Under the pieces are notes generated by a model. The model saw only the letters and a list, made by a program, of their open reading frames with translations, ran no database searches and was not told where the DNA came from. 64,000 bases of DNA from Leucobacter luti (GTDB lineage Bacteria; Actinomycetota; Actinomycetes; Actinomycetales; Microbacteriaceae), in contig NZ_CP080492.1 in assembly GCF_019464495.1 (NCBI RefSeq), forward strand, positions 1,798,001 to 1,862,000. The letters run 5' to 3'. Positions 9,922-62,555 of this stretch are shown here, one piece after another. Numbering within the stretch: position 1 is the stretch's first letter; each line of letters begins with the position of its first letter. The translations under genes and the position numbers were made by a program.

Positions 9922-10914
9922 GTGAGTGCGCCAGAGTTCGCCCCAGCGCGCTGCGCCACTGATGCACCGCGCATCGCGGATGCACCGCGCATCGCGGAGT
10001 CCGAGTGGCGGGAGCTGGCAGCGGCCCACGCGGATCGCGCCGATGCGCTCACCGCAGGTCACCGTGAGCGCACGCAGCGCCGCGAGCGCCACCCGATTGA
10101 AGATTTTCTGTGGACCTATTACTCGGTGAGCCCCGGCGAGCTGCGGCGCTGGCACCCCGGCGCCGGACGAGTGCTTGCCGGTGCTGGTCCAGAACGTGGA
10201 GGGTGGAGACACTACCGGGAGACAGGTGCTGCGGGCAGGGACGCTGTCGTCGATCTCCCAGAGTTCTTTGCCCGCCGCCGTGGCACAGTCGACTACATTG
10301 AAGGGCTGCTCGCCGCGACGCTCGCACACACGCCCAAGTACGGCTGCTTCGGCCTCCACGAGTGGGCAATGGTGTACCGGATGACGCCAGAACAGCTGCG
10401 GCACACGACGCTGCCCTTGCGGATCGGACATGCTGCGACGGACCAGGTGGTCGAGTCACACTCGATCGGGTGTACGCACTTCGATGCGTACCGGTTCTTC
10501 ACCCCCGAGGCTGCGCCGCTCAACACGCTGCGCCCCACTCGCGAGACGCAGCCTGCGCTGGAGCAGGCTGGGTGCCTGCACGCGGGAATGGATGTGTACA
10601 AATGGGCAGCAAAGCTGGGCCCGATCGTGCCAGGAGAGGTGTTGCTCGACGCGTTCGTGCTCGCGCGTGACATTCGAGAGGTCGACATGCGGGCCTCCCC
10701 GTACGACGTCACCGGGTTCGTCGGGACAGACGGCAGCCTGCTCACCCCGATCCCGATCGAAACGCCCGCGGGGAAGCGAGCGTACGCGCGGCTGCAGCGC
10801 GGTTTCGCTGATCGCGGCAACGCGATCCGCAGCAGTGTGCTTGCAGCCATCGCAGTCGCGCGCACGGGAGATGCACTGGCGATGGCTGCGGGGACGACGC
10901 AGCGGGTCGCCTAG
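9922..10914 (+). CDS. 3-methyladenine DNA glycosylase-like protein (function unproven)
   Basis: The predicted protein is 330 aa from GTG 9922. Upstream in-frame starts extend into the region divergent from the giant gene and encode low-quality sequence. The segment HPIEDFLWTYYSVSPGELRR near residue 60 and the later GLHEWAMVY and HSIGCTHFDAYRFF stretches are hallmarks, from memory, of an actinobacterial family carrying the name 3-methyladenine DNA glycosylase. I see no helix-hairpin-helix or Tag/AlkA/Mpg catalytic motif, so the enzymatic role is doubtful. It is monocistronic, and its stop is one base from the stop of the convergent P-type ATPase gene. Two near-identical DAPRIA segments occur near the N-terminus (9959-10000), a small internal duplication. 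Confidence 0.6.
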   Translation: MSAPEFAPARCATDAPRIADAPRIAESEWRELAAAHADRADALTAGHRERTQRRERHPIEDFLWTYYSVSPGELRRWHPGAGRVLAGAGPERGGWRHYRETGAAGRDAVVDLPEFFARRRGTVDYIEGLLAATLAHTPKYGCFGLHEWAMVYRMTPEQLRHTTLPLRIGHAATDQVVESHSIGCTHFDAYRFFTPEAAPLNTLRPTRETQPALEQAGCLHAGMDVYKWAAKLGPIVPGEVLLDAFVLARDIREVDMRASPYDVTGFVGTDGSLLTPIPIETPAGKRAYARLQRGFADRGNAIRSSVLAAIAVARTGDALAMAAGTTQRVA

Positions 10915-10915
10915 C

Positions 10916-12784
10916 TCACTCCGCGCCCCGCCGACGCTTCGGGCCGCGGATCGCACGCAATGCGCCGAGAATCGCGACCAGGTCAACGAGTTCTTGCAGC
11001 CATGCGCCGAGCAACGCGGGGAGGAAGCCGAACGCCGCGATCATCATGAGCACGACGCTGAACCCGATCCCTAGCCAGATACTCTGCACGGCGATCCGCA
11101 CCGTGTCGCGGCCGATCTGCACGGCATCCGCGACTCCAGCAATACGGTCGAAGCGGTTCACCACGTCGGCTGATTCACTCGCGGCAGTCGAGCCACGCGC
11201 GCCCATAGCGAAGCCGACATCTGCCGCTGCAAGTACCGGAGCATCGTTCAGGCCGTCACCCGTCATGAGCAGTGGGCGAGGGTGCACGTCGGCGATAATC
11301 CGCACCTTGTCAGCGGGTGTGCATTCAGCGTGCACCTCACCGATGCGCAACTGGGCGGCGAGCGGATACGCTGTCGCCGCAACGTCACCCGTCACGACCA
11401 ACATCCGCTCGACACCGAGGCCGTGAAGCGCAGCAATCGTATCGATCGCGTCCTCCCGCAGGCGATCCCGCATCACGATGACCCCCGCGAAGCGATCGTT
11501 GCGGGCCACGTAAATCGCGAGCTCACCCGGCTCCAACTCGGCGTGCACCAGGTCGGATGCGACCTCGCGCACCCAGGCCGGCTTCCCCACACGGACCGTG
11601 CCGCCAGCGAGGCGAGCCGAAACCCCGTTCGTCGCGTACTCTTCCGCCTCGGTGACGGCGAGCAAGCTGAGGTCGCGCGCCTTCGCGGCTCCGACTACGG
11701 CGCTCGCAAGCACGTGTGAGGAGTAGACCTCAGCAGAAGCGGCGAGCTGCAGCACATCCTCTTCGGTGAAGCCAGGCTGGGTCAGAATCCGCCGGGGCTC
11801 GGGCTTGCCCGTCGTGAGCGTGCCCGTCTTGTCGAACGCCGCTGAGCGCACTCGCGCGAGCTGTTCCAGTGTGCCGCCTCCCTTGACGATCAGGCCTGCC
11901 TTCGCCGCACGGCTCATCCCCCCGAGGAACGCGACGGGTGCCGCAATCAGCAAAGGGCAGGGAGTCGCCACGACGAGCACCTCTGCAAAACGCACGGCAT
12001 CACCGCTGAGCCACCAGGCAAGCCCCGCAATCCCGAGCGACACGAGGGTGAACGGCACCGCGTAGCGATCCGCCATGCGCACCGTTTTCGCCTTGCTGTG
12101 CTGCGCGGTCTCGACCAGGCGGACGATCTGCTGGTATTGGCTGTCGCTCGCAAGTGCGGTCGCCCGCATGTGCACAGCAGCCGAGCCGTTGATCACACCG
12201 CTCGCGACTTTCTCTCCCGCGGCGCGATCCACCGGCAGGCTTTCCCCCGTGAGCGAGGATTCGTCAAAGGAGGCGGCATCCTCACACAAGATCGCGTCGA
12301 CCGGTACGAGGGCGCCAGGGCGCACCAGCAACGTATCCCCGATCATGATCTCGTGCACATCGACGACCTCCGTGCGCTCACCCCCGTCTTCATCAAGCTG
12401 CCCCTCCAGCACGCGGATGGCTTGGCTTGGCGCACGCTCCAGCAACGCGGTGAGCTCGCGCTTGGACCTGTTCTCTGCGTAGTCCTCGAGCGCCTCACCG
12501 CCCGTGAGCATCAGCACGACCACCAGCGCAGCCCACGGCTCGCCGACGAGCACCGCGGCGACGACCGCTGTGACCGCGAGGATATCGAGGCCCGCATGGC
12601 CACGCAGCAACTGCCGCACCATGCCGACGGCTTGCCAGGCCGCGATCAGCAGGGCATAGCCGCCGACGAGCCACGGCGCTGTGCTCCGCGCTGGAGTGGC
12701 GAGCAGGAGCAAGCCAACGATGCCGACAGCCGCGGTCGCCGCGACAAGCGGATACGCGCGGATTGCGCGACGGAGCTGGGTCAT
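10916..12784 (-). CDS. Heavy-metal P1B-type ATPase with TPC motif
   Basis: A 622-aa membrane pump predicted to export or import transition metal cations at the expense of ATP. The start at ATG 12784 follows a GGAGAG site at 9-bp spacing; the upstream in-frame ATG lacks one. It has no N-terminal metal-binding domain. Two pairs of N-terminal membrane helices are followed by the actuator TGES loop. The membrane metal site reads ATPCPLLIAAP near residue 272, so the usual CPC is TPC. The phosphorylation motif FDKTGTLTTG (Asp about 318), the nucleotide-domain motifs and MTGDGLNDAPVL are intact. Two C-terminal helices end the protein. TPC-type pumps are less well characterised than CPC copper or zinc pumps, so the metal is not assigned. 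No metal regulator or chaperone is adjacent. Confidence 0.88.
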   Translation of the reverse strand: MTQLRRAIRAYPLVAATAAVGIVGLLLLATPARSTAPWLVGGYALLIAAWQAVGMVRQLLRGHAGLDILAVTAVVAAVLVGEPWAALVVVLMLTGGEALEDYAENRSKRELTALLERAPSQAIRVLEGQLDEDGGERTEVVDVHEIMIGDTLLVRPGALVPVDAILCEDAASFDESSLTGESLPVDRAAGEKVASGVINGSAAVHMRATALASDSQYQQIVRLVETAQHSKAKTVRMADRYAVPFTLVSLGIAGLAWWLSGDAVRFAEVLVVATPCPLLIAAPVAFLGGMSRAAKAGLIVKGGGTLEQLARVRSAAFDKTGTLTTGKPEPRRILTQPGFTEEDVLQLAASAEVYSSHVLASAVVGAAKARDLSLLAVTEAEEYATNGVSARLAGGTVRVGKPAWVREVASDLVHAELEPGELAIYVARNDRFAGVIVMRDRLREDAIDTIAALHGLGVERMLVVTGDVAATAYPLAAQLRIGEVHAECTPADKVRIIADVHPRPLLMTGDGLNDAPVLAAADVGFAMGARGSTAASESADVVNRFDRIAGVADAVQIGRDTVRIAVQSIWLGIGFSVVLMMIAAFGFLPALLGAWLQELVDLVAILGALRAIRGPKRRRGAE

Positions 12785-51004: not shown

Positions 51005-51889
51005 ATGGATCTCCCGGTCGAACACCTCGCGACGTTCACTGCCGTGATCGACGAGGGCAGCTTCGAAGGGGCGGCGCGCAAGCTGCACGTGACCCCTTCA
51101 GCCGTGAGCCAGCGCGTGCGTGCACTGGAGGAACGCGCAGGATCCGTGCTCGTGCAACGCACCCGCCCGGTCAGCGTGACCGAGGCAGGGGCCGCCGTGC
51201 TCCGGGCGGCGCGGCAGATCGCAAGGATCACGGACGACGTGGGTGCTGAACTCGGCACCGCCCCAGAGGCCGGCTCGCTGATTCCGATCGTGGTGAACGC
51301 TGATTCACTCGCCACCTGGTTCGTCCCGGCCCTTGCTCGCGCGGCACGTGAAACGGGCGCACGCTTCGAGGTGTTGCGCGCGGACGAGACGATCTCGACT
51401 GAGAAGTTGCGCCGCGGAGCGGTCATGGCAGCGCTCACCTCAACCAGCGAGCCCGTTCCCGGGTGCACCTCCACTCGGATCGGCACCGATCACTATCACG
51501 CGGTCGCGAGCCCCTCCTTCGCCGCCGAGCACTTCCCCTGCGGGCTCACGGCTGAGGCACTCAGGCGCGCACCATCGGTCGACTTCGATCGCCATGACGC
51601 ATTTCAGCAACGATTCCTCCGCAAGATCACGCGGGCAGAAGTGAGACCACCGCGCCACTTCATCCCGTCGTCAGCAGAGTTCGCCCACGCGGTCGAACTC
51701 GGCATGGGGTGGGGCATGCTGCCTGAACGACAGTGCACCGTGCCGATCGCGGAGGGGCGCATGGTCGATCTCGCACCCGGCGCTGCCATCGAACTCCCGC
51801 TCTACTGGCAGCGGTGGAAGCTCCGCTCCCCTGTGTTGGACGCGCTCTCGCAGATCATTGCAGACGAGGCCGGCGCTGCCCTGGGCTGA
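51005..51889 (+). CDS. LysR-family activator ArgP/LysG
   Basis: A 294-aa regulator from MDLPVEHLATF, with GGAGGG 6 bp upstream; an earlier in-frame ATG (50969) lies inside the promoter. The HTH is SFEGAARKLHVTPSAVSQRV. The effector domain includes VNADSLATWFVPALA, a match to ArgP/IciA proteins. It should activate the divergent lysE gene in response to lysine or arginine. Confidence 0.92.
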   Translation: MDLPVEHLATFTAVIDEGSFEGAARKLHVTPSAVSQRVRALEERAGSVLVQRTRPVSVTEAGAAVLRAARQIARITDDVGAELGTAPEAGSLIPIVVNADSLATWFVPALARAARETGARFEVLRADETISTEKLRRGAVMAALTSTSEPVPGCTSTRIGTDHYHAVASPSFAAEHFPCGLTAEALRRAPSVDFDRHDAFQQRFLRKITRAEVRPPRHFIPSSAEFAHAVELGMGWGMLPERQCTVPIAEGRMVDLAPGAAIELPLYWQRWKLRSPVLDALSQIIADEAGAALG

Positions 51890-51912
51890 CCCGCCCCAGG
51901 GTAGCGCCGGTA

Positions 51913-52758
51913 TTACAGCGCGTCGAGCGCGATCGCCTGCGTGAACGTGATCCTGTCACGAACCACACGCTCGGGATCCCAGCCAGGCCCTGGTGTCGAG
52001 GAGATCAGCAACTGCGTGTACGCGTGCTGCGGGGCGCTGAGCACTTGCTCGGTCGGCCCCTCCTCGACCACGGTGCCGCGGTACAGCACGAGCACCCGCT
52101 CACAGACCTCCTCGACCACTGCGAGATCGTGGCTCACGAACAGGTAGCCAACCCCGGTATCGCGCCGAATCTCGGACAGCAGATCGAGCACCTGAGCCTG
52201 TACGGACACATCGAGCGCGGAGACCGCCTCATCGAGCACCAGCAGCTCAGGTTCTACGGCGAGTGCCCGCGCGATGGCGACGCGCTGCCGCTGTCCACCG
52301 GAAAGCTCGTGCGGCTTCGCAGCGGCGTGCCGCTCGGTCAGCCCCACGCGATCCAGCAATGCAAGCGTGCGGATTCGCGCCTCAGCAGCGGTGCTCGCGA
52401 TCCCGTGCAACCGCATCGCCCGTACCAGCGTCTCAGCTACGGAGAGCCGGCGATCCAGTGAGCCGTTGGGATCCTGGAACACCATCTGCACGGCCCTCGC
52501 GCGCGCCAGCCGCGCAGCACGGCCCCGCGGACGGGCGAGCTGATCCTGTCCGCCGACCGTGAGCGCACCCGCGTCAGGCCGCTCCAGCCCGACGAGGATG
52601 CGCGCGATCGTGGACTTGCCCGAGCCAGACTCGCCGACGAGCCCCAACGACTCCCCGCGCTCGATCGCGAACGACACCCGGTTCACCGCGGTCACGTCTT
52701 CTGCACCGCGCCCCATCCGAAATACGCGGTGGAGCTGATCTGCCTGCACGAGCGTCAT
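51913..52758 (-). CDS. Oligopeptide ABC importer ATPase, DppF/OppF-like
   Basis: A 281-aa ATPase. Walker A is GESGSGKSTIARILVGLERP, signature LSGGQRQRVAIARALAV, Walker B LLVLDEAVSALDVS, and switch FVSHDLAVVEE. It ends in a short OppF-type tail. It is the last gene of the six-gene C45/importer operon and overlaps the preceding ATPase gene by 4 bp. Confidence 0.93.
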   Translation of the reverse strand: MTLVQADQLHRVFRMGRGAEDVTAVNRVSFAIERGESLGLVGESGSGKSTIARILVGLERPDAGALTVGGQDQLARPRGRAARLARARAVQMVFQDPNGSLDRRLSVAETLVRAMRLHGIASTAAEARIRTLALLDRVGLTERHAAAKPHELSGGQRQRVAIARALAVEPELLVLDEAVSALDVSVQAQVLDLLSEIRRDTGVGYLFVSHDLAVVEEVCERVLVLYRGTVVEEGPTEQVLSAPQHAYTQLLISSTPGPGWDPERVVRDRITFTQAIALDAL

Positions 52759-53549
52759 GGCTGTGCCCTCCTGGTCATCGTGGGCGCCGCGTCAATAAGC
52801 GAGCGCGTGTACTCGTGCGCGGCGTCTTCGAACAGCCGCTGCCCGGCGAGCGACTCCACGATCTCGCCGCGCTGCAGCACGTGCACCCGGTCGCAGATCG
52901 CGGCGGCGAGGTGCAGATCATGCGTGATGAACAGCACTCCGAGCCCCCGCTCTCGGATCTGACGCTGCATGATCGCGATCACCTCGGCCTGCGTGGTGAC
53001 ATCAAGTGCGCTCGTCGCCTCATCCGCCAGGATCAGCTTCGGCTGCGTGCTGAGCGCACCCGCGATCACCACGCGCTGCAGCATTCCGCCGGAGAGCTCG
53101 TGCGGGTACTGCCGCATGCGCCGCTCGGGCTGCGACAGACCGACTGCAGCAAGCAGCTCGCGTACGGTCGCGTTCGCCTCGCCCTGCGGACGGCCGTGCA
53201 CGCGCACCAGCCGTTCGGTCAGCGAGTCGCCGATCCTGCGTACCGGATTCAGCGCGGCACGCGGATCCTGTTGGATCAATGCGGTGTCTGCGGCACGCAC
53301 CCGCCGGAGCGTCTCAGGGCCAGCCCCGATCATTTCGGTGCCGTCGATCACGGCGCTGCCGGCAAGCGTTGCCTCATCACCGTAGAGCCGCAGTGCGGCC
53401 CGCACTGTTGTCGATTTGCCCGAGCCCGACTCTCCGACGAGGCCGACGAGTTCGCCCGGCCCGACCGCCAGGCTGATCCCCCGCAGCACGGGAACTGGCC
53501 CCGCAGGGGAGCTGAAGCTGAGGTGCAGGTCAGTGAGTTCGAGCAGCAT
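52755..53549 (-). CDS. Oligopeptide ABC importer ATPase, DppD/OppD-like
   Basis: A 264-aa ATPase from ATG 53549, which shares a base with the permease stop (TGATG); the longer open frame upstream is antisense noise. Walker A GESGSGKSTTVRAALRLYG, signature LSGGMLQRVVIAGAL, Walker B LILADEATSALDVT and FITHDLHLAAAICD are normal. It lacks the long C-terminal OppD tail that holds an iron-sulfur cluster in some members. Confidence 0.93.
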   Translation of the reverse strand: MLLELTDLHLSFSSPAGPVPVLRGISLAVGPGELVGLVGESGSGKSTTVRAALRLYGDEATLAGSAVIDGTEMIGAGPETLRRVRAADTALIQQDPRAALNPVRRIGDSLTERLVRVHGRPQGEANATVRELLAAVGLSQPERRMRQYPHELSGGMLQRVVIAGALSTQPKLILADEATSALDVTTQAEVIAIMQRQIRERGLGVLFITHDLHLAAAICDRVHVLQRGEIVESLAGQRLFEDAAHEYTRSLIDAAPTMTRRAQP

Positions 53550-54406
53550 CAGTGCTCCTTCCGTGCCAGCAGGCGGTCGGCAACGCGCACGCCAACAACG
53601 TTGACGGCGATGACAACAAGCGCGATCGCGGCGCCTGGGATCAGCGTCGGCAGGAAATGGCCCTGCACGATCCCGGCCTGCCCTTCCTGCACCATCAGGC
53701 CCCACTCCGAGCTGGGCGGCTGCGCGCCGAAGCCGAGGAAGCTCAGCGTTGCGATACTCATCAACGCCTCGCCGAACAACACGACGAGATAGCCCACGAG
53801 CGGCGGCAGCAGGTTCGGCACCACGCCGCGCACGCAGATGGCAAGGCCGCTCATCCCCTGGGTGCGGTACGCATCGATGTACGCCTTCGAGATCTCGCTG
53901 AGCGCGAGGCTGCGCACGAACTTGGCAATCACCGGGGTGTACGCCAGGGCGAGCGCGACGATCGCGGTGACGGGCCCTTTGCCGAACACCGAGATCACGA
54001 GCACGACAAAGAGCAGGCCGGGGAAGGCGAACATGACGTCGGTGACGCGTGCGAGCAAGGTATCGACCCAGCCACCGCGCCATGCGGCGAGCATGCCAAT
54101 CGTGATGCCGAGCACCGTCGCGATCAGGAGCAGCACGACCGGGCCGATCAGCGTGTCCGCGGTGCCGAGCATCACGCGGGAGAGCAGATCCCGGCCCATC
54201 TGGTCAGTGCCGAGCAAGTGGCTGGCCGAGGGGGATCCCCACAGCGCCGTGAAGTCGATCTCATCCTGCTGGTACGGAGCAAGCCACCCGGCGAGCAGCG
54301 CAACGAGGATCACGATGGCGAGGAAGCCCGCGGCGAGCCAGAATCCGAACGGAGTTGTTGGCTTCGCCGGTTTCTTCCGAAGCCGGGGTGGGAGCAGCGC
54401 GGTCAT
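53549..54406 (-). CDS. Oligopeptide ABC importer permease, DppC-like
   Basis: A 285-aa permease. The TM1 region is FLAIVILVALLAGWLAPY and the N-terminal OppC extension FTALWGSPSASHLLGTDQMG carries the typical GTDxxGRD. The EAA loop ALSEISKAYIDAYRTQGMSG contacts the ATPase. It overlaps the neighbouring permease gene by 4 bp. Confidence 0.93.
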   Translation of the reverse strand: MTALLPPRLRKKPAKPTTPFGFWLAAGFLAIVILVALLAGWLAPYQQDEIDFTALWGSPSASHLLGTDQMGRDLLSRVMLGTADTLIGPVVLLLIATVLGITIGMLAAWRGGWVDTLLARVTDVMFAFPGLLFVVLVISVFGKGPVTAIVALALAYTPVIAKFVRSLALSEISKAYIDAYRTQGMSGLAICVRGVVPNLLPPLVGYLVVLFGEALMSIATLSFLGFGAQPPSSEWGLMVQEGQAGIVQGHFLPTLIPGAAIALVVIAVNVVGVRVADRLLARKEH

Positions 54407-55356
54407 CGGGGGGCCACCTTCCCTGAGATTCGGGGATCAAGGACGGGGAGGAGGAGGTCGACCACTGTGGTGACCACCATGTAGGCCACCACCATGAACA
54501 GCAGCACGGCCTGGACCACGGGGAAATCGTGGGTGTTGATCGCGTCGACCAGCAGCGACCCAACGCCCGAGAGCCCGAACACGGTCTCTACGGCGACGGT
54601 GCCCGCGATCATCGACGCGATGACGAGGGCGACCATCGTGATGATCGGGCCCCACGCGTTCCGCAGCACATGATCGCGCACGATGAAGCGCTCGCGGAGC
54701 CCGGTCGCCCGCGCAGCCTCGACGTGTTCTGAGGTGAACTGCTCGATCATGGTCTGACGCGTGACGCGACTGACGATCGCAAGTGCGGTGATCGCGAGGG
54801 TCAGCGCTGGCAGGGTGAGGTGGAACAGCCGTTCGCCGAAGCCTGGGCCGCCGATGCCGGCGACCGGGAACCAGCGCAGCTGCACCGAGAACAGGGCGAC
54901 GAGTGCGATCCCGAGCACAAACGACGGGATACTCGCGGCGAGCGTGGTGCCGCTCACCACGAGAGAATCGACCGCGGTACGGCGGCGTACCGCGGCGAGC
55001 ACGCCGAGGCCGATCCCGAACACGGTCAGCAGGACGGACGCGTAGGCCACAAGCGACAGCGTTGTGGGAACACGCGCCGCCATGATGTCTGCGACCGGCT
55101 GGTGGTATTTGAACGACTCACCGAAGTTGCCGGTGAGCACGCCGGAGGCCCAGTGCCAGTACTGCGCCAGCAGCGGCTGATCCAGGTGGTACTGGGCCCG
55201 GACGCTCGCAATCCGCTCCGGGGTCATATTCTCCGGGTTCCCGATGAGGAACGTCACGGGGTCGCCTGGTGCCGCATACATTGCGGCGAAGATGATGAAG
55301 GAGGCGATCACCAGCGTGACGAGCATGCCGGCGAGCTTTCGGATTGCGTGCGGCAT
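54403..55356 (-). CDS. Oligopeptide ABC importer permease, DppB-like
   Basis: A 317-aa permease with six helices. AMYAAPGDPVTFLIGNPENM is the usual first external motif, and EHVEAARATGLRERFIVRDH the EAA loop. ETVFGLSGVGSLLVDAI near the end is highly conserved in DppB. It starts 3 bp after the binding-protein gene. Confidence 0.93.
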   Translation of the reverse strand: MPHAIRKLAGMLVTLVIASFIIFAAMYAAPGDPVTFLIGNPENMTPERIASVRAQYHLDQPLLAQYWHWASGVLTGNFGESFKYHQPVADIMAARVPTTLSLVAYASVLLTVFGIGLGVLAAVRRRTAVDSLVVSGTTLAASIPSFVLGIALVALFSVQLRWFPVAGIGGPGFGERLFHLTLPALTLAITALAIVSRVTRQTMIEQFTSEHVEAARATGLRERFIVRDHVLRNAWGPIITMVALVIASMIAGTVAVETVFGLSGVGSLLVDAINTHDFPVVQAVLLFMVVAYMVVTTVVDLLLPVLDPRISGKVAPR

Positions 55357-55359
55357 GGT

Positions 55360-57012
55360 TTAGCCCTTCGTGCTGCCGAGATCGGCTGCCCACGGGTAGT
55401 AGATGAACGCCGCGGATGACGGCACTCCGGTCACGTCGCCCGACATCACGAGCGTCGCTGGTGTGGCAACAACAGGCAGCCACACGGCATTCTCGACCCA
55501 CTTGGCCTGCAACTCGATCGCGATCTGTGCGCGCTCCGCGTCGTCGGTCGCCGCGTACCCCTCGGCGACGAGCGTGTCGTATTCAGGGTCAGCGAACCCG
55601 GCGAAGTTGACGCTCGCGTCGGACTTGCCGTTCTTGTAGAAGCCGATGGGGTCGTTCTTCGAGATGTAGTACTCGTCTGGCCACAGGTCAGCCTGGTTGC
55701 GCAGCGCTTCATCGGTGTAGAGATCGCCGTACTGCACGGCTGGCACGGTCAGGATCTCTGCCTGCAGCCCGATCTTGCCTGCTGCGTCGACCAGCGCGCT
55801 CGCGATCACATTGTGCGCAGAGGAGCCGTTCGAGGCGACCACGATCGGCTCTGATGGCGCTCCAGCCTCCTTCACGAGGGCCTTCGCTGCGGTGAGGTCC
55901 TCGTCGCTCGGTTCAGCCGGTGCGCCCTCGAGTGCGTCGTAGGCCGTCTGGAAGGCCTCCTGCTCGTAGCCCCACGCCCCCGTACCGACGGGGGTCTTCC
56001 ACGGCTCAGCGAGCCCGGCAAATGCCGACTGCGCGATGCCCTCGCGATTGAGCGCGAGCGAGAGTGCCTGACGCAGCCGCACATCGGTGAGCGCGCCCTT
56101 CGCCGTGGTCTCTAGCACCCACGCGTTCGTGGACGGCCCCTGGAATACCCCGACGCTGTCGCTGCCGAGGAAGGCCTTTGCGCCAGCGGCATTCTCCAGG
56201 AATGCGCCCTGCGCCTCGCCGGTCGTGATGCTGTTGACGATCGCGGACTCGTCTGCCCAGCGGAACACCACCTCCTCGACCTGGCCGGCGCGCTCCGGGT
56301 TCCAGTAGGTGTCGGTCTTGGTAATGGTGAGCTGCGATCCTGCATCCCAGGAGGTGACCTCGTAGGGGCCACTGCAGGCCGAAGGGCTGCCCGGCTTGCC
56401 GAAGGAATCGCCTGCCTCCTCGATCACGCGCGGGTTCCAGACGATGCCGCCATCGCCGGCCATCGCTTGCACAAAGATCGCGTCCGGCTGGCTCGTGGTG
56501 ACCGTGATCTGGTTCTCCGCCGTCTGCTGCATGTCGACAACGTTCGCGTACTCATCAGACTCGGCCGCGCCCTCCTCGGCGTGCCGCTGCATGCTCCACA
56601 GCACGTCCGCGGTGGTGAGTGGGCTGCCATCGTGGAACTGGGCGCCCTGGCGGATCGTGAATACGACGTGCGTGTCATCGATCCACTCGGCGGACTCCGC
56701 GATCCCCTCACCGAGCGTGAGATCCGGCTGCACCTGCATGAGGCGGTCGCAGACATTGGCGAGCACGGTATCGTCGGCCGTCGTCGCGTCGACGTCAGCG
56801 TCAAGCGTTGTCGGCTCGCCGCCGAGCATCCAGGTGACCGTGTCGAGCGGGCCGGACGCCGCTGGGGTGCTGGGGCCGAACGGCACCTCGGCTCCCGCGG
56901 TGTCGCCGCTGTCCGGGGAGCCGGTCGCGCAGCCGGTGAGCACGAGTGCCGTCAGGGTGACAGCGCTCGCGGCGAGGGTGAGGGTACGGGCGGAATGCCG
57001 GTGAGCTCTCAT
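55360..57012 (-). CDS. Oligopeptide-type ABC solute-binding lipoprotein
   Basis: A 550-aa SBP_bac_5 protein starting MRAHRHSART; the frame upstream is spacer. The lipobox LVLTGC lipidates Cys28. VTWMLGGEPTTLDADVDATT begins the mature fold, and VVFTIRQGAQFHDGSPLTTADVLWS is the family signature. It should capture the substrate outside the membrane for the DppBCDF machinery. The ligand is unknown. It is cotranscribed with the C45 hydrolase that precedes it by 56 bp, which suggests the hydrolase acts on what this protein brings in. Confidence 0.93.
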   Translation of the reverse strand: MRAHRHSARTLTLAASAVTLTALVLTGCATGSPDSGDTAGAEVPFGPSTPAASGPLDTVTWMLGGEPTTLDADVDATTADDTVLANVCDRLMQVQPDLTLGEGIAESAEWIDDTHVVFTIRQGAQFHDGSPLTTADVLWSMQRHAEEGAAESDEYANVVDMQQTAENQITVTTSQPDAIFVQAMAGDGGIVWNPRVIEEAGDSFGKPGSPSACSGPYEVTSWDAGSQLTITKTDTYWNPERAGQVEEVVFRWADESAIVNSITTGEAQGAFLENAAGAKAFLGSDSVGVFQGPSTNAWVLETTAKGALTDVRLRQALSLALNREGIAQSAFAGLAEPWKTPVGTGAWGYEQEAFQTAYDALEGAPAEPSDEDLTAAKALVKEAGAPSEPIVVASNGSSAHNVIASALVDAAGKIGLQAEILTVPAVQYGDLYTDEALRNQADLWPDEYYISKNDPIGFYKNGKSDASVNFAGFADPEYDTLVAEGYAATDDAERAQIAIELQAKWVENAVWLPVVATPATLVMSGDVTGVPSSAAFIYYPWAADLGSTKG

Positions 57013-57068
57013 GTGTGTGACGCCTCCTTGCGTTGGGGTGAATGGTGGTGCAGGTGTGAGTCTGGGGG

Positions 57069-58268
57069 CTACGCAGTCGCTGCGACCGCGAAGCTGGGCG
57101 CCGGATCGGCGAAGGCTGGTCCGTCGTAGATGTTCCAGGGCAGCAGCTGGTACTCCGTCTCGCACGGGAAGCCTGCCGCGACGAGGTAATCGCCTGTGGT
57201 GAGGTCAACGCAGCTGGAGAGCAGCGTCGACCAGCGCTTCAGTTCGGGTGCGTCCGCGCTGGGGTGCGTGCAGACCCCCTCTGGGTAGCCGAGGTGATCC
57301 GACATCGCAGCACGCACGAGATCGTAGCTCTCCTGGCTCGTTTGGGCGTCGGCAACGCGCGCGAGCCCCTGTGTGACGCGCGGCAGGCGGAGCAGGGAGT
57401 CCGCCGAGACTGGCCGATACCGGCCGGCCAGCTGCGGCGGGACGGACGCCTGGAAGTGGTTCGTGTGTGCCAGCAGCCCGCCCTCCGGGTACAACCAGTC
57501 GACACCGTCAGGCGTGGTCTCGAGGTCGATCCCGAAGCCGCTGCGGTGCGCGAGGAGTGCATTGCTCGCGATGTGTGGCCGGATCTTGACGAGGGTCTTC
57601 AGCGCGAGGTTGAGGTCTGAGTGATCGAGCACGAGGCGGCGGATGAGCGTCTGCGGCAGCCCAATCTCGTTGCCGAAGCTGCCCCCGAGACCGTTGGCGT
57701 TGAGCGCAATCCCCGCGGAGTTGGCCCCGTGGCGGCCCACCTGCCCAGCCTCCACCTGCAGGATGACCGTGGGAAGCGGATCCTGCACCACACGCACGAT
57801 CAGCGTGGTGTCGGCGGTGAGCGTGCGCCAGTCCCAGTTCTGGCCGACAAGCGTATGGCCGGTGCCCGAGGCCGTTCCGGTGAGGAAGAACGAGGTGCAG
57901 CCGTCTGCCGGATCGCGCTCGTCGTCAGCTTCTGCCTGCACCGGTGCCGTGGTCTGGCTCGCCTGGTGGTTGTAGACGAACTCCCCGCGCACGTTCAGGG
58001 TGAGGATCTCGGCGAAGCTGCGCCCTGATCCGTCTGCGATCCCACGCATCTCCTCGACGAGGTGAGGGGCGTGTGCCTCGCACACTGGCAACCAGCGCTT
58101 CACCGAATCGGTAATCGCGGCCCAGCTCATACCGGTTTGCTGTGTGAGGGCCGCCTCGTAGTAGCCGATCGCGCGCTCGATGAGATCGGCAGCGGCGGCG
58201 CCGTACTGGCGGCCGCGCTCGCGCGGGGTGCCGCTGATCTCGATCGTGCGGATGGGGGTGACACTCAC
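57069..58268 (-). CDS. C45-family Ntn-hydrolase (isopenicillin N acyltransferase-like)
   Basis: A 399-aa protein from GTG 58268, with AAGGAG 8 bp upstream. The ADGCTSFFL segment holds the self-cleavage site Gly123-Cys124, so Cys124 is the predicted N-terminal nucleophile of the large chain. MRGIADGSGRSFAEILTLNVR before it, and LVGQNWDW, GANSAGIALNANGLGG and LAHTNHF after it, are C45/AAT landmarks. Family members acylate or deacylate beta-lactam nuclei, or cleave N-acyl amides. No signal peptide, so it acts in the cytosol. It is the first gene of the importer operon; the likely job is deacylation of an imported amide. The reaction is inferred. Confidence 0.88.
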   Translation of the reverse strand: MSVTPIRTIEISGTPRERGRQYGAAAADLIERAIGYYEAALTQQTGMSWAAITDSVKRWLPVCEAHAPHLVEEMRGIADGSGRSFAEILTLNVRGEFVYNHQASQTTAPVQAEADDERDPADGCTSFFLTGTASGTGHTLVGQNWDWRTLTADTTLIVRVVQDPLPTVILQVEAGQVGRHGANSAGIALNANGLGGSFGNEIGLPQTLIRRLVLDHSDLNLALKTLVKIRPHIASNALLAHRSGFGIDLETTPDGVDWLYPEGGLLAHTNHFQASVPPQLAGRYRPVSADSLLRLPRVTQGLARVADAQTSQESYDLVRAAMSDHLGYPEGVCTHPSADAPELKRWSTLLSSCVDLTTGDYLVAAGFPCETEYQLLPWNIYDGPAFADPAPSFAVAATA

Positions 58269-58325
58269 TAGCGGTCTCCTTCGGCCTTGCGCGGGACTCC
58301 TTGACGGGGCATGATGCTTGGAACA

Positions 58326-58342
58326 GCTATTACAAGAATAGC
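58326..58342. promoter_or_regulatory. Candidate operator between the C45 operon and its RpiR regulator
   Basis: GCTATT-ACAAG-AATAGC is a perfect inverted repeat with 6-bp arms and a 5-bp spacer, centred in the 84-bp divergent gap. A second pairing, TTACAA (58330) with TTGTAA (58378), extends into the regulator start region. The position suits shared control of both transcripts. Confidence 0.6.
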
Positions 58343-58352
58343 GCCCCACAAA

Positions 58353-59255
58353 ATGGATGATACACACATGGAAGCTTTTGTAACAACCGATACCGAGAAT
58401 CCCGCGCTGGTGCGGCTTCGGTCGCGGATCGCGCAGCGTTGGGACGAGCTCTCGAAAGCCGAACGCGCCGTGTGCGGGATCCTCACCGGGAACTCGGCCG
58501 AGCATCTGCTCTACGCGAGCGCTGCGGAGCTCGGCGCCGAATCGAAGACCTCAAACGCCACCGTGATCCGCACGCTGCAGTCGCTCGGCTACGCTGGCCT
58601 CTCCGAGCTGAAGCAGGAGGTCGCGGCGCCCTTCACCTCGGCGGTCGCGCCAGAGGTTCGACTCCGACAGCGCATCGAGTTCCTAGGGCAGAATCTCGCC
58701 ACGATCCAGCAGGAAGTGTGGCGTGAGGCCGAGTCGCTGATCGCGCTCGGCGCACAAGGCAACTCCGACGCCGACTACTCAGCAGCGATCGACGTCCTGA
58801 TCCACGCGCGCACGGTGTACAGTTACGGCCTCGGCGCATCTGGCATTGCCGCGGATCACCTGTCCCTCCGGCTGCGCCGCACTGGCGTCGCAACGAGGCG
58901 GCTGGCGGTCGACGGTTTCCGGCTTGCTGACGAGCTGCTCGAGCTGGGCGCGCACGACGCCGTGGTGATCTTCGCACCGGGCCGCGTGACGCGCGACATC
59001 GAAGCGCTGCTAGATCGCGCGCAGCGGGTGGGAGCCAAGGTACTGCTGATCACAGATGAGCTCCGCGAATCACTCGCCAGTCGAGTCACAGCGGTCCTCT
59101 CGGCACCGCACACTCCCACCGGCATTACCGCAGAGGGGCTCATTGGGATCCTCATCGCGGATGTGCTCGTGCAGGGGATCGTCGCCGTGGGGCCAGACAC
59201 CGCGCTGCGAGTGTCCCAGGAACTCAATGAGCTCAGGGGCCAACTGGGGTACTAG
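58353..59255 (+). CDS. RpiR/MurR-family transcriptional regulator
   Basis: The start is uncertain between ATG 58353 (300 aa) and ATG 58368; both lack a strong ribosome site. The N-terminal RpiR helix-turn-helix reads LSKAERAVCGILTG, then AAELGAESKTSNATVIRTLQ and LGYAGLSELKQE. The C-terminal SIS domain (about 130-260) carries ARTVYSYGLGASGIAADHLS and VVIFAPGRVTRDIEALLD. SIS domains bind phosphosugars in most relatives, yet the divergent operon looks peptide- or amide-related. It probably represses that operon through the inverted repeat in the shared gap. Confidence 0.88.
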   Translation: MDDTHMEAFVTTDTENPALVRLRSRIAQRWDELSKAERAVCGILTGNSAEHLLYASAAELGAESKTSNATVIRTLQSLGYAGLSELKQEVAAPFTSAVAPEVRLRQRIEFLGQNLATIQQEVWREAESLIALGAQGNSDADYSAAIDVLIHARTVYSYGLGASGIAADHLSLRLRRTGVATRRLAVDGFRLADELLELGAHDAVVIFAPGRVTRDIEALLDRAQRVGAKVLLITDELRESLASRVTAVLSAPHTPTGITAEGLIGILIADVLVQGIVAVGPDTALRVSQELNELRGQLGY

Positions 59256-59299: not shown

Positions 59300-60679
59300 C
59301 TACGCGTTGAACGACACGTATCCAGCGATGAGGTACGCGATGAATGACAGCGCCGCCGCGAGCCCCGCGTAGGGCAGGATCGACAGCATCAGGTTCAGCG
59401 GCTTCACGCCAACGGACTTCGACGCGAGAATGATCCCGTCACCATAGAGACAGGTGGTGGATCCGAGCGCAGCTCCGGAGAACACCGCGGTGCCCGCAAG
59501 CACCGGATCCACGCCGACCGCGATCGCCAGCGGCAGCACGACCGGCGTAATCACAGCGGCGAGATCCCAAAATGCCCCGGTCGCATACGCATACACTCCG
59601 CACACTAGGAACACGATTGCCGGCAGCAGTGCGCCGGACATCACGGGCTCAGTCGCGCCGATCACCCAGTCAGCCAGCTGCAGATCCATGTTGATCTGCT
59701 GCACCATGAACGCGAGAACGAACAGCACCATCACGTAGCCCATGCTCGTGATGCCTTCGAAGGCGTGATCCAGCACCCCCTTGAGCGTGAGCCGGCGCTG
59801 CGCAACGTAGAGAATGATCGCGACCACCACAGCAGCGGCCGCACCCTTCACGATGTCGACCTCGGTGAGGATCGTGACGAGCACGAGCACGACGATCGGG
59901 ATCAGGAAGTTGAAGGGAAGCGGACGCGTACTGTCCTTCCCGTCCTCCGCCAGCTCGAATGCGCGCTCCTCCGGGCTCAGCCCCTCCGGCAACGGATCAC
60001 CCGTGCGATCAGCGAGCTCCTGGGCGCGCTTCAGCGGACCCACGAGCGGGAGGAGACCGAGAGCGAGCAGCAGGCCGATTGCGAGCGCGAACCAGCCGAA
60101 GAACACATAGGGGAGCCCGGAGAGATACGCCCCGAACCCGGAACCATTGACGGTGACGCCGTCCTGCTCCAGCAGCGCAGAGAAGAACACGGCCCAGGTA
60201 GAGAACGGAATGATGACGGCGATCGGTGCACTCGTGAGCTTCACAATCGAGCCCACCATCGTGCGGGGCACGTTGTAACGGTCGGTGACGCGCTTCATTG
60301 ACGTGCCGACGGTCAGCGCGTTGAGGTAGTCATCGATGAACAGGGCCACGGTCAGCAGCCACGTGAGCAGCAGCGACTTGCGGCGCGAGTTCACGAAACG
60401 CTCAGTCCAGCGAGCGAAATCGTTCACTGCACCCGAGGCGTTGAAATACGCGATCAGAATCCCGAACAGTACGACAACGAGCACGAGCCAGTGCACGGTC
60501 TCATTCGTGAGTGAGGCTCCGAATGTGCCGACGAGGGTGTCAAAGAACCCCCACCCGCCCAGGAGCACAGCACCGACGACGGTGCCTGCGAGGAGGCCGA
60601 GCAAGGCGCGCTTGGTGAGCACCGAGACCAGCAGGACGGTGAGGACTGGCAGCAACGCCAGTGCAGTGTTTTGGACCAC
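59300..60679 (-). CDS. NhaC-family Na+/H+ antiporter-like transporter
   Basis: A 459-aa membrane protein with about eleven helices from GTG 60679 (AAAGG upstream). FIDDYLNALTVGTSMKRVTD is the highly conserved NhaC-superfamily segment, and STWAVFFSALLE and GAFWDLAAVITPVVLPLAIA also match. Members exchange Na+ with H+ or with organic acids and amines. It follows the RpiR gene convergently and is itself followed (in its transcription direction) by nothing; the amidohydrolase gene lies upstream on the same strand and may share its transcript. Confidence 0.87.
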   Translation of the reverse strand: MVQNTALALLPVLTVLLVSVLTKRALLGLLAGTVVGAVLLGGWGFFDTLVGTFGASLTNETVHWLVLVVVLFGILIAYFNASGAVNDFARWTERFVNSRRKSLLLTWLLTVALFIDDYLNALTVGTSMKRVTDRYNVPRTMVGSIVKLTSAPIAVIIPFSTWAVFFSALLEQDGVTVNGSGFGAYLSGLPYVFFGWFALAIGLLLALGLLPLVGPLKRAQELADRTGDPLPEGLSPEERAFELAEDGKDSTRPLPFNFLIPIVVLVLVTILTEVDIVKGAAAAVVVAIILYVAQRRLTLKGVLDHAFEGITSMGYVMVLFVLAFMVQQINMDLQLADWVIGATEPVMSGALLPAIVFLVCGVYAYATGAFWDLAAVITPVVLPLAIAVGVDPVLAGTAVFSGAALGSTTCLYGDGIILASKSVGVKPLNLMLSILPYAGLAAALSFIAYLIAGYVSFNA

Positions 60680-60811: not shown

Positions 60812-62445
60812 CTAGGCGGCGTGCGAGGTGTGCAGTCCGTCCAGGTAGGTGGCAATGACCGGCAGCTCGGCGAGATCATCGCCCGGCACGGTCAGCGGAT
60901 CCTCGGCCCACACCGCGAGGTCCGCGCGCGCCAGGACGGATGATTCCCAGATCATCGTCGCCCTGCGCGAGCGCTGCCCCTCTGGTGTAGCCGTGCAGCG
61001 CCTGCGCCGCGCTGAGTCGCTGTTCCGGCTCATACACGAACGCATCGCGCGCGCCTGGAGCTCGGCGCAGCATCGCCCAGGCGAGGCCAAACCGGGCGTC
61101 CAGATCGGCGATCGGCCAGTCGGAGCCGAGCGCAAGTGGAGCGCCAGCAGCCAGCACGCTGGCAGCATTCCATCCGCGAGCGGCGCGCTGCGGGCCAAGC
61201 CGACGCGCCCACTCATCGCTCCCGTCAGCAATCCGCCACTGCAGGTGCGGCAGTTGCATCGGGCGGTGATCCCCGCGGCGGCGAGTCGCGCGACGTCGCG
61301 CGGGTCGAGGGTCTCGAGGTGTTCAATGCGGTGCGGGATCCCAGCGCGCGATCGGGCGCCGACACCCTCGTACGCGGTAATCGTCTCGCCGACCGCGCGA
61401 TCTCCAATCGCATGCGTCGCGATCTGGAAGCCGGCTGCGGTGAATTCCTGCACCGCCGCGACAAAGTCCGTCTGATCCGGCCAAAATCCGGCCAGCCCGT
61501 CCCCGTCAGTGTCTGCCTCGTAGAGCCACCCGGCCCCCGTATCGATCACACCGTCGGCATAGAGCTTGATCACGCCGCCGCGCCAACGTGCGCCAGCGCG
61601 ATCGCGCTGGTTCCTGATCGCGGCACGCTGCTCGGAAGTGTACGTCGGCTTGACATCCATCGCGCTCACGATCCGCACGGGGAGCCCCAGACCAGTCGTG
61701 TCCAGCGCTTCGAGCAGGTCGAGCGTCTCGGAGTTGCCGTCCATGATGGTGCCGCCAGTGAGTCCGGAGCGACGCATCTTGGCGAACGTTGCGCGGGCTG
61801 ACTCGAGCGTCTCCGCGCGACTCGGCTTCGGCGCGACCTCGAGGATCGGCTGATATGCGCTGTCCTCGCGCAACTCTCCCGTGGGGGCGCCTGACGCGTC
61901 AACGATAATCTCGGAGCTGTCCTCAAATGCTCGTGCGCCCGTGATCCCGGAGCGGCGCAGCGCCTCCGTACTCGCGATCGCCGTGTGAAAGTCGAAAAAG
62001 AAGAGCAACGCTGGCATGCCGTCCACGGCCTCGTCGATCAGGTGTGAGCTGAGAGTCGCACCGTCGAAGGCAGCGTAGTCGAGGTTCCAGGCGCGGACCC
62101 AACCGTCACCGCCGCGCTCCCGGACTCGGGCAGTCTCGGCGCTGAGAGCGTTGCGGAGATCCCGCAGATCACGGACGGCCCCGAGATCGGCGCCCTGACA
62201 GAGTTCGACGCCCTGAATCGGGTGCAGGTGCGCGTCGATGAGGCCGGGGTGACCGTCGCACCGGCGCCATCATCGACCCGGGTCTGCGGGCCCCGGAATG
62301 CCTCAGCAATGTCATCGTCCGAGCCGACAGCGAGGACACGGCCATCTGCGATGGCAATCGAGCGCGGTGCGGTGTTCTCGTCACCGGCGACCATCGTGTG
62401 CACGCGCGCGCTCGCGATGATCAAGTCGGCCTTCAGTTCCGCCAC
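60812..62445 (-). pseudogene. Amidohydrolase (YtcJ/NfdA-like), three frame breaks
   Basis: GTG 62445 follows GGGAGG at 6 bp. The first part is AELKADLIIASARVHTMV, then ATVTP. At 62244 one base is missing; the next frame gives GLIDAHLHPIQGVEL (metal-binding His pair) and continues to GITA with EALDTTGLGLPVRIVS, GGVIKLYADGVIDT and THAIGDRAVGE. At 61261 another base is missing; MQLPHLQWRIADGSDEWA through LALGSDWPI (metal-site Asp) and YTRGAALAQGDDDLG lies in the third frame. Near 60923-60932 two bases of a CG repeat are missing and ADLAVWAEDPL returns to frame 2. The repaired 545-aa protein is complete. The substrate is probably an N-substituted amide. Confidence 0.85.
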
Positions 62446-62555
62446 GGTGTCCTCCCAGAGTTCATGACACCGCGTATCCTCGATGGAGACGCGGAGCACC
62501 CTTAATTTACGCAGATTCAATAACGACTGCAAGCTCCGCTGCACGAGGGAGTTCC

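Follow-up and report, generated by a model that had tools for sequence, protein, structure and literature searches.

Operons that combine a hydrolase with a peptide-type importer are of a known kind. In Escherichia coli, ddpX-ddpABCDF begins with the gene of the zinc D-Ala-D-Ala dipeptidase DdpX, which is followed by genes for a substrate-binding protein (SBP), two permeases, and two ATPases. The gamma-glutamyl transpeptidase Ggt of Staphylococcus aureus is an Ntn-hydrolase. According to the accessible part of the source, it is cytoplasmic and encoded in the ABC importer operon gisABCD-ggt, whose substrate is glutathione (PMC10355420). In iaaA-gsiABCD of E. coli, the hydrolase gene is located directly ahead of an Opp-type importer with an SBP of the SBP_bac_5 class, and the available portion of a published account lists IaaA as an Ntn-family enzyme (PMC10206079).

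The window analyzed here, 64,000 nucleotides of a Leucobacter genome, contains a comparable unit of six co-directional minus-strand genes and one divergent gene (51913-59255). The first gene of the operon codes for a C45 family autoproteolytic Ntn-hydrolase (57069-58268; 399 aa) and is followed by the genes for an SBP_bac_5 lipoprotein of the Opp/Dpp/Gsi type (55360-57012; 550 aa, lipobox LTGC), the importer permeases B (54403-55356) and C (53549-54406), and the ATPases D (52755-53549) and F (51913-52758). An RpiR-family regulator is encoded on the plus strand (58368-59255; 295 aa). A previous sequence-only reading had delineated the same genes at the same coordinates and reported overlaps of 1 to 4 bp at most junctions; this holds for three of the five junctions (4, 1, and 4 bp), but the SBP and permease genes are separated by 3 bp and the C45 and SBP genes by 56 bp. 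A hairpin between the latter two genes was rejected, because the 76-nt stretch folds no better than 199 of its 200 shuffles, and a scan of positions 51700-52050 found no terminator past the last ATPase gene.

The gene order hydrolase, SBP, permeases, and ATPases is that of ddpX-ddpABCDF, although DdpX is a zinc dipeptidase. The unit works like the iaaA-gsi operon without being a member of it: an Ntn-hydrolase gene precedes an importer with the same class of SBP, but IaaA is an isoaspartyl peptidase and not a C45 protein, GsiA unites in a single protein the ATPases that are encoded by two genes in Leucobacter, and no RpiR gene occurs in the E. coli stretch that was read. With gisABCD-ggt the unit shares an importer operon containing a cytoplasmic amide-cutting enzyme; however, Ggt does not belong to C45, its substrate is glutathione, and the accessible part of the source mentions no divergent RpiR gene (PMC10355420). 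By analogy, the logic of import and hydrolysis is most likely that of these two systems, and the combination of C45 and RpiR is a new form within this familiar operon type.

All seven genes, in the same order, are present in each of the 19 examined clusters whose C45 protein is at least 54% identical. These clusters stem from Leucobacter, Microbacterium, Agromyces, Streptomyces, Embleya, and two further genomes and span at least three bacterial families, a degree of conservation that exceeds chance. The unit is rare and appears to move as a block, probably through horizontal gene transfer. The outcome that the sequence-only reading had named as fatal to its proposal, a C45 gene not syntenic with the importer in relatives, was thus not observed. 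A relative with 47-48% C45 identity (G409, L062) lacks an RpiR gene within the 18.9 kb that were read. The pairing of C45 with an importer and RpiR is not general to the C45 family, because neither an RpiR match nor a complete Opp importer was found in the available stretches, some of them short, of 23 loci with 22-35% C45 identity; many of these adjoin SDR, polysaccharide-deacetylase, or hydantoinase-type genes. An Opp-type importer also accompanies C45 under GntR regulators on plasmids of Alphaproteobacteria and under a LacI regulator in the same genome (L047). The C45 proteins of these loci are only 26-37% identical, the regulators belong to other families, extra catabolic genes are present, and C45 comes last in the LacI type. 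The C45 tree separates the RpiR, GntR, and LacI types, with support of 90/92 for the RpiR type. These patterns bear on the possibility that C45 and the importer handle unrelated compounds and are merely co-transcribed. Their link is drawn from the genes, but conservation in 19 of 19 clusters across at least three families, the recurrence of the pairing with GntR and LacI regulators, and a stop-start overlap in Agromyces make such a coincidence very improbable.

The C45 gene starts with GTG and has the Shine-Dalgarno sequence GGAG. Its product matches PF03417 with 53.7 bits (cut-off 23.2) and NF040521 with 228.6 bits (cut-off 85), and the predicted structure has the penicillin-acyltransferase fold of the family. 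G123-C124, D146, and N270 align with the structure 2x1d, and the catalytic Cys, Asp, and Asn are invariant in all 30 aligned C45 proteins. From the alignment, the protein is predicted to be cleaved between Gly123 and Cys124 (Cys124 codon at 57897-57899, minus strand) and to use Cys124, Asp146, and Asn270 in catalysis. Isopenicillin N acyltransferase of Penicillium, which belongs to C45 and shares the Gly-Cys cleavage site and the catalytic residues, relies on Asp121 and Asn246 for catalytic roles and is both an acyltransferase and a hydrolase. Its self-cleavage occurs at Gly102-Cys103 according to the available part of the source (PMC10194958). No signal peptide was seen in the Leucobacter C45 sequence, which makes the protein a credible cytosolic amidase as judged from its residues.

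The C45 enzyme might also work as an acyltransferase, so that an imported amine would be acylated or would exchange its acyl group with acyl-CoA and no amide would be hydrolyzed. The nearest solved structure is indeed acyl-CoA:isopenicillin N acyltransferase, and the Penicillium enzyme performs transfer besides hydrolysis. However, the next fold matches are hydrolases, the adjoining importer suggests breakdown, and the bacterial AzsT, which carries the C45 label, removes a succinyl group by hydrolysis as far as the accessible text reports (PMC10445470); we consider acyl transfer quite unlikely. The same fold, common to penicillin- and cephalosporin-processing enzymes, is what speaks for the uptake and deacylation of a beta-lactam or another acylated antibiotic as a means of inactivation. 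Importing an antibiotic would be an odd defense, though, the family name derives from the fungal enzyme, and no resistance or antibiotic biosynthesis gene occurs among the neighbors annotated or scanned. The beta-lactam-like ligand suggested by the sequence-only reading thus lacks specific support, and this explanation is highly improbable. Of 8000 candidates scored, 932 C45 proteins matched the query at E 1e-20; the relatives listed, where the source names them, are called after the fungal penicillin enzyme or plainly C45. One scan of viral contigs (P0081) found no C45 protein.

The importer is of the peptide type (Opp/Dpp/Nik/Gsi), with an SBP_bac_5 lipoprotein, a permease B matching BPD_transp_1 and BPD_transp_1_N, a permease C matching BPD_transp_1, and two ATPases: D with the Walker A motif GESGSGKS and the signature LSGGMLQR, F with its own Walker A motif, the signature LSGGQRQR, and an oligo_HPY C-terminus. 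DppA and OppA bind the alpha-ammonium group of peptides through Asp408 and Asp419, respectively (positions in the precursors, verified against the sequences). Ser451 occupies this position in the Leucobacter SBP, and among the 14 RpiR-type SBPs aligned from the 19 clusters, 13 have Ser and one has Thr. By sequence, GsiB (1uqw) ranks third among solved SBPs, and it also has Ser at this position. The imported compound would therefore probably not be held via a free peptide-type alpha-amine. This argument is weak, because the Asp is absent from 10 of the 16 SBP_bac_5 proteins of the same genome, including the present one, and because the SBP model has low confidence at this very position, with residues 451-453 and 455-460 below pLDDT 50.

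The regulator, whose conserved start is the ATG at 58368 and not 58311, is the sole HTH_6 match of the genome (33.1 bits for HTH_6 and 39.5 bits for SIS, both above the cut-off). RpiR-family regulators that sense phosphosugars contain the phosphate-binding loop S/T-x-S/T-G in their SIS domain, as in MurR, HexR, and AlsR. In the Leucobacter protein F-A-P-G-R replaces this loop; none of the 19 cluster regulators has S/T-x-S/T-G and all have F-x-P-G-R, whereas 29 of 30 other Microbacteriaceae RpiR proteins retain the loop (the best 30 loci by HTH match, of 75 genomes with a match), as do all three of E. coli. The sequence-only reading had reasoned from the usual phosphosugar sensing of RpiR proteins to a possible N-acyl amino-sugar peptide; in this version, such a peptide or a muropeptide would be taken up, and RpiR would sense a phosphosugar made from it. 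In its favor, MurR and AlsR of E. coli adjoin sugar-phosphate genes. In one Microbacterium locus (L015), moreover, a peptidoglycan-binding domain occurs in a protein encoded about 2.4 kb past the unit, and the cluster of this protein has a member in the sister species (L016). However, this is the sole cell-wall-related protein among the scanned recurring neighbors, in which sugar kinases, etherases, and muropeptide enzymes are absent. With the loss of the loop, the argument that leads from RpiR to a phosphosugar fails, phosphosugar sensing was rejected on this ground, and an amino-sugar ligand is most improbable.

A candidate promoter of the C45 operon (58357-58386, minus strand) consists of TTGTTA (58381-58386) and TATCAT (58357-58362), separated by 18 nt. 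The -35 element and the RpiR codons for Val-Thr are overlapped by a conserved half-site, TTGTTACAA (58378-58386, minus strand), which is conserved at the DNA level via the rare codons GTA ACA. A second, inverted half-site, TTGTAATAG (58327-58335, minus strand), follows downstream of the -10 element. In all 14 Microbacteriaceae units, a GTAAY word lies 52-54 bp from the conserved TTGTTAC. Five more distant loci have GTTAC/ATTAC-like words in different arrangements, so that the layout is clear in Microbacteriaceae only. The second half-site falls within the perfect 6-5-6 inverted repeat (58326-58342) that had been suggested as the RpiR binding site. This repeat is real and covers the conserved GTAAY word, but by itself it is near chance level: when the 99-bp gap was shuffled 2000 times with dinucleotides preserved, 13.5% of the shuffles contained one or more 6-bp inverted repeats with a loop not exceeding 10. 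Among the 14 Microbacteriaceae units, the identical repeat is limited to the window and its L. luti counterpart (L013); six others have a different perfect palindrome over GTAAY, and the remaining six lack one. The exact repeat was therefore rejected as a conserved operator, and the GTAAY/TTGTTAC pair is the better operator candidate.

A Na+/H+ antiporter (59300-60679) and an amidohydrolase adjoin the unit, as the sequence-only reading had pointed out; the amidohydrolase is split over two reading frames. Among the 12 closest loci, both occur beside the unit in the window and L. luti only, and with the amidohydrolase frame broken they were rejected as parts of it. Among the recurring neighbors scanned, no further catabolic gene was seen to travel with the unit. 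The substrate might be an omega-amino acid or amine amide (beta-alanyl or GABA amides, N-acyl-beta-alanine, or N-acyl amines), and the unit would then supply beta-alanine, GABA, or amines. The insect C45 protein Tan is reported to break down N-beta-alanyl dopamine and to cleave itself between Gly121 and Cys122 (PMC10194958). Among nine distant alphaproteobacterial C45 loci, of which 17 kb each were read, four have an aminotransferase, assigned by Pfam to class III in the three that were scanned, and two an enzyme annotated as succinate-semialdehyde dehydrogenase. However, C45 identity to these loci is no more than 30-37%, their regulator is of another kind, and the scanned recurring neighbors of the RpiR-type unit include no aminotransferase; a substrate of this kind appears rather unlikely. 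The Penicillium acyltransferase, Tan, and AzsT act on other substrates, and the available parts of their sources mention no pairing with an importer.

It is fairly likely, judging from the gene content, that the unit is a self-contained scavenging operon that imports an amide, hydrolyzes it in the cytosol, and is controlled by RpiR without phosphosugar sensing. The importer would take up a small amide-linked compound, and C45, after self-cleavage at Gly123-Cys124, would hydrolyze it to an amine or amino acid and an acid. We infer that the compound brought in by the importer is the substrate of C45 and that the reaction is hydrolysis. The acid may enter general metabolism, because no further catabolic gene accompanies the unit. 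RpiR, presumably a repressor, would span the operon promoter by binding the inverted GTTAC half-sites, which are spaced by about five helical turns, and would be released by the imported compound or its hydrolysis product. Of the earlier proposal, cytosolic deacylation of an imported compound agrees with the conserved unit and the intact catalytic residues, but not the amino-sugar step. That an acyl-amide signal is scavenged or silenced instead of serving nutrition is very unlikely.

In the literature covered, which excluded subscription papers, no account of C45 accompanied by an importer or by RpiR was found. Tentatively, the unit may represent a previously undescribed, horizontally moving amide-scavenging module in which RpiR has traded phosphosugars for direct sensing of the amide or its product. 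Its regulator would then belong to a branch of SIS regulators answering a non-phosphorylated, non-sugar ligand; together with GntR and LacI, RpiR would make up at least three types of regulator on C45-plus-Opp operons of Actinobacteria and Alphaproteobacteria. The unit gives C45 enzymes a physiological frame. Since one importer and one regulator are coupled to C45, it also offers a direct route to the substrate, which is expected to be recognized by the binding protein as well as by the regulator. Because a defined branch of RpiR has lost the loop, the idea that SIS-domain regulators can be recruited to non-sugar ligands becomes testable.

In the window, which spans G000:C1:1798001-1862000 of a 3.41-Mb genome, six minus-strand genes encode a C45 Ntn-hydrolase (57069-58268), a binding lipoprotein (SBP; 55360-57012), two permeases (B and C; 54403-55356 and 53549-54406) and two ATPases (D and F; 52755-53549 and 51913-52758), and the gene of an RpiR regulator (start 58368, end 59255) is divergent from this operon, as the sequence-only reading had described. 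Overlaps of 1-4 bp, claimed for most junctions, occur at three of the five; the other two are gaps of 3 bp and, between C45 and SBP, 56 bp. The synteny that this reading had itself proposed as a test was found in relatives. RpiR is divergent from C45-SBP-B-C-D-F in all 11 close loci of the species-representative collection (L013-L023; seven Leucobacter and four Microbacterium records, C45 identity 71-94%), and the closest relative, a Leucobacter luti unit, is 94% identical over the seven proteins. The seven-gene layout is also present in two Agromyces genomes (G240 and G280; 60%), in G426 and G531, in the annotated record of Streptomyces sp. SAT1, and in two Embleya plasmid records, which amounts to 19 of 19 clusters, the window counted, spread over three or more families (f1, f24, f26). 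The unit is rare, occurring at C45 identities of at least 60% in three of 299 family genomes (own genome included), and it is absent from the other 23 of the 34 C45 loci examined (identity 22-35%). No RpiR gene was found in the stretch read of G409 (L062), which has a C45 relative at 47-48%; two C45 genes lie close together on this contig (C199), and the search result shows one of them with an in-frame TGA. In G121 (L051; C45 identity about 41%), a regulator with HTH_6, GntR, and FCD domains (10319-11275, minus strand) separates C45 from the importer.

In the seven-protein tree of 14 units, Microbacterium falls among Leucobacter, and a constraint joining the eight Leucobacter units was rejected (AU p = 1e-5). 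Together with genomic neighbourhoods that differ between units, this topology is read as transfer of the unit as a whole block, a reading qualified by uneven sampling and by one MAG row (L021). In L014, L020, L023, and L051 an arginine-deiminase/DDAH-like gene (assigned by Pfam in L014 and L051, by clustering in L020 and L023) is found no more than 7 kb from C45, with a ClpB-like gene near it in the three Leucobacter loci; this setting may represent a shared insertion site. Next to the antiporter in the window, an Amidohydro_3 gene (60818-62454, minus strand) is split into two frame pieces (62454-62245 and 62248-60818). Its L. luti counterpart (L013) is an unbroken frame of 564 codons, and the split gene is either a pseudogene or a sequencing error.

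The RpiR protein matches HTH_6 and SIS above the cut-offs, and no other protein of the genome matches HTH_6. Phosphate is bound by the S/T-x-S/T-G loop of the SIS domain, which is present in MurR, HexR, and AlsR. Of 30 other Microbacteriaceae RpiR proteins, 29 keep this loop and one, L100, has SNTA; this control set consists of the 30 best HTH scorers, out of 75 genomes with a match, and is hence biased. In all 19 cluster regulators the position reads F-A/Q/V-P-G-R, which would make a sugar phosphate an unlikely ligand. With it falls the step from RpiR via a phosphosugar to an amino sugar that had been proposed earlier. The perfect 6-5-6 repeat in the intergenic gap (58326-58342), put forward as the RpiR site, does span a conserved word, GTAAY (58327-58335), but taken alone it is near chance (13.5% of shuffles), and its exact form is restricted to the window and L. 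luti. Six other units have a different perfect palindrome, of type ATCCGTAACGGAT, over GTAAY, and six have none. What is conserved is TTGTTAC (58378-58386) together with GTAAY in inverted orientation, a pair found in 14 of 14 Microbacteriaceae units with a spacing of 53 bp in 12 and 52 or 54 bp in two, near five helical turns, and occurring once in the genome. TTGTTAC sits in the RpiR codons for Val-Thr, which are always GTA ACA although in these genes GTA accounts for 1.6% of Val codons and ACA for 4.0% of Thr codons; this constancy argues that selection acts on the DNA, beyond the protein alone. TTGTTAC also overlaps the -35 element of a promoter-like site toward C45 (TTGTTA-18-TATCAT). In the five more distant loci the half-sites are arranged differently.

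All five importer subunits belong to the Opp/Dpp/Nik/Gsi class. The closest solved binding proteins by sequence, all of them distant, are AapF, AgaA, and GsiB (YliB), and in fold comparison these and others are about equal. In DppA and OppA an aspartate holds the alpha-amine of the peptide (Asp408 and Asp419; both positions were checked). Its place is taken by Ser in 13 and Thr in one of 14 aligned RpiR-type SBPs, and GsiB also has Ser. The replacement argues against a plain dipeptide binder, if weakly, because 10 of the 16 SBPs in the same genome, the unit's own included, lack the Asp and because the SBP model (pLDDT 77.8) is unreliable around residues 451-460. The importer would take up a compound whole, and C45 would cut it inside the cell; this mechanism, with an amide as putative substrate, appears reasonably probable. 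Favourites for the substrate class, judged from distant relatives only, would be omega-amino acid amides or N-acyl amines. The logic of import followed by internal cleavage is common to iaaA-gsiABCD of E. coli and, according to PMC10355420, which places Ggt in the cytoplasm, gisABCD-ggt of S. aureus.

Besides the RpiR type there are LacI and GntR types, and C45 is thus recurrently paired with an Opp importer. This is not universal, as the importer is absent at H8 and H25. The LacI-flanked type occurs in the same genome as the window (L047, G000:C1:1605000-1622000), where C45 comes last (SBP-B-C-D-F-C45) and the cluster adjoins Amidohydro_3 and MFS genes. Fourteen of 62 records were opened in all, nine of them alphaproteobacterial plasmid loci. 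These nine represent the GntR type: GntR adjoins C45 or lies one gene off in 9/9, an SBP_bac_5 protein is encoded in 9/9, and permeases in 8/9. Aminotransferase genes are present at four of the nine, three of which were scanned and assigned by Pfam to class III; at two there is an aldehyde dehydrogenase bearing a succinate-semialdehyde dehydrogenase annotation. The C45 tree separates the three types on long branches, with support of 90/92 for the RpiR type. The C45-side regulators of L064 (6941-7861, minus strand) and L068 (6978-7898, plus strand) have two GntR-profile stretches and FCD. In L072 (9147-11709, plus strand), the Neorhizobium SBP and permease genes past C45 are missing from the record's gene table and lie in overlapping frame pieces, which reflect sequencing error or decay. 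A third C45 of the window's genome (L048, G000:C1:3263000-3282000) has as neighbours genes for a polysaccharide deacetylase, an SDR, and a protein that matches GerE and Peripla_BP_6. Distant actinobacterial C45 genes (L024, L027, L030, L043) stand in a different catabolic context, with polysaccharide-deacetylase-like, SDR-like, and hydantoinase-A-like genes (labels from clustering, one scanned member each).

In the literature searched for C45 with an importer or RpiR, no description of an RpiR-C45-importer unit was found. Operons of a hydrolase and an Opp-type importer are already known, and the C45-RpiR version appears to be new. The unit is useful and testable for specialists rather than astonishing; of wider interest is a branch of RpiR regulators without the phosphosugar loop.
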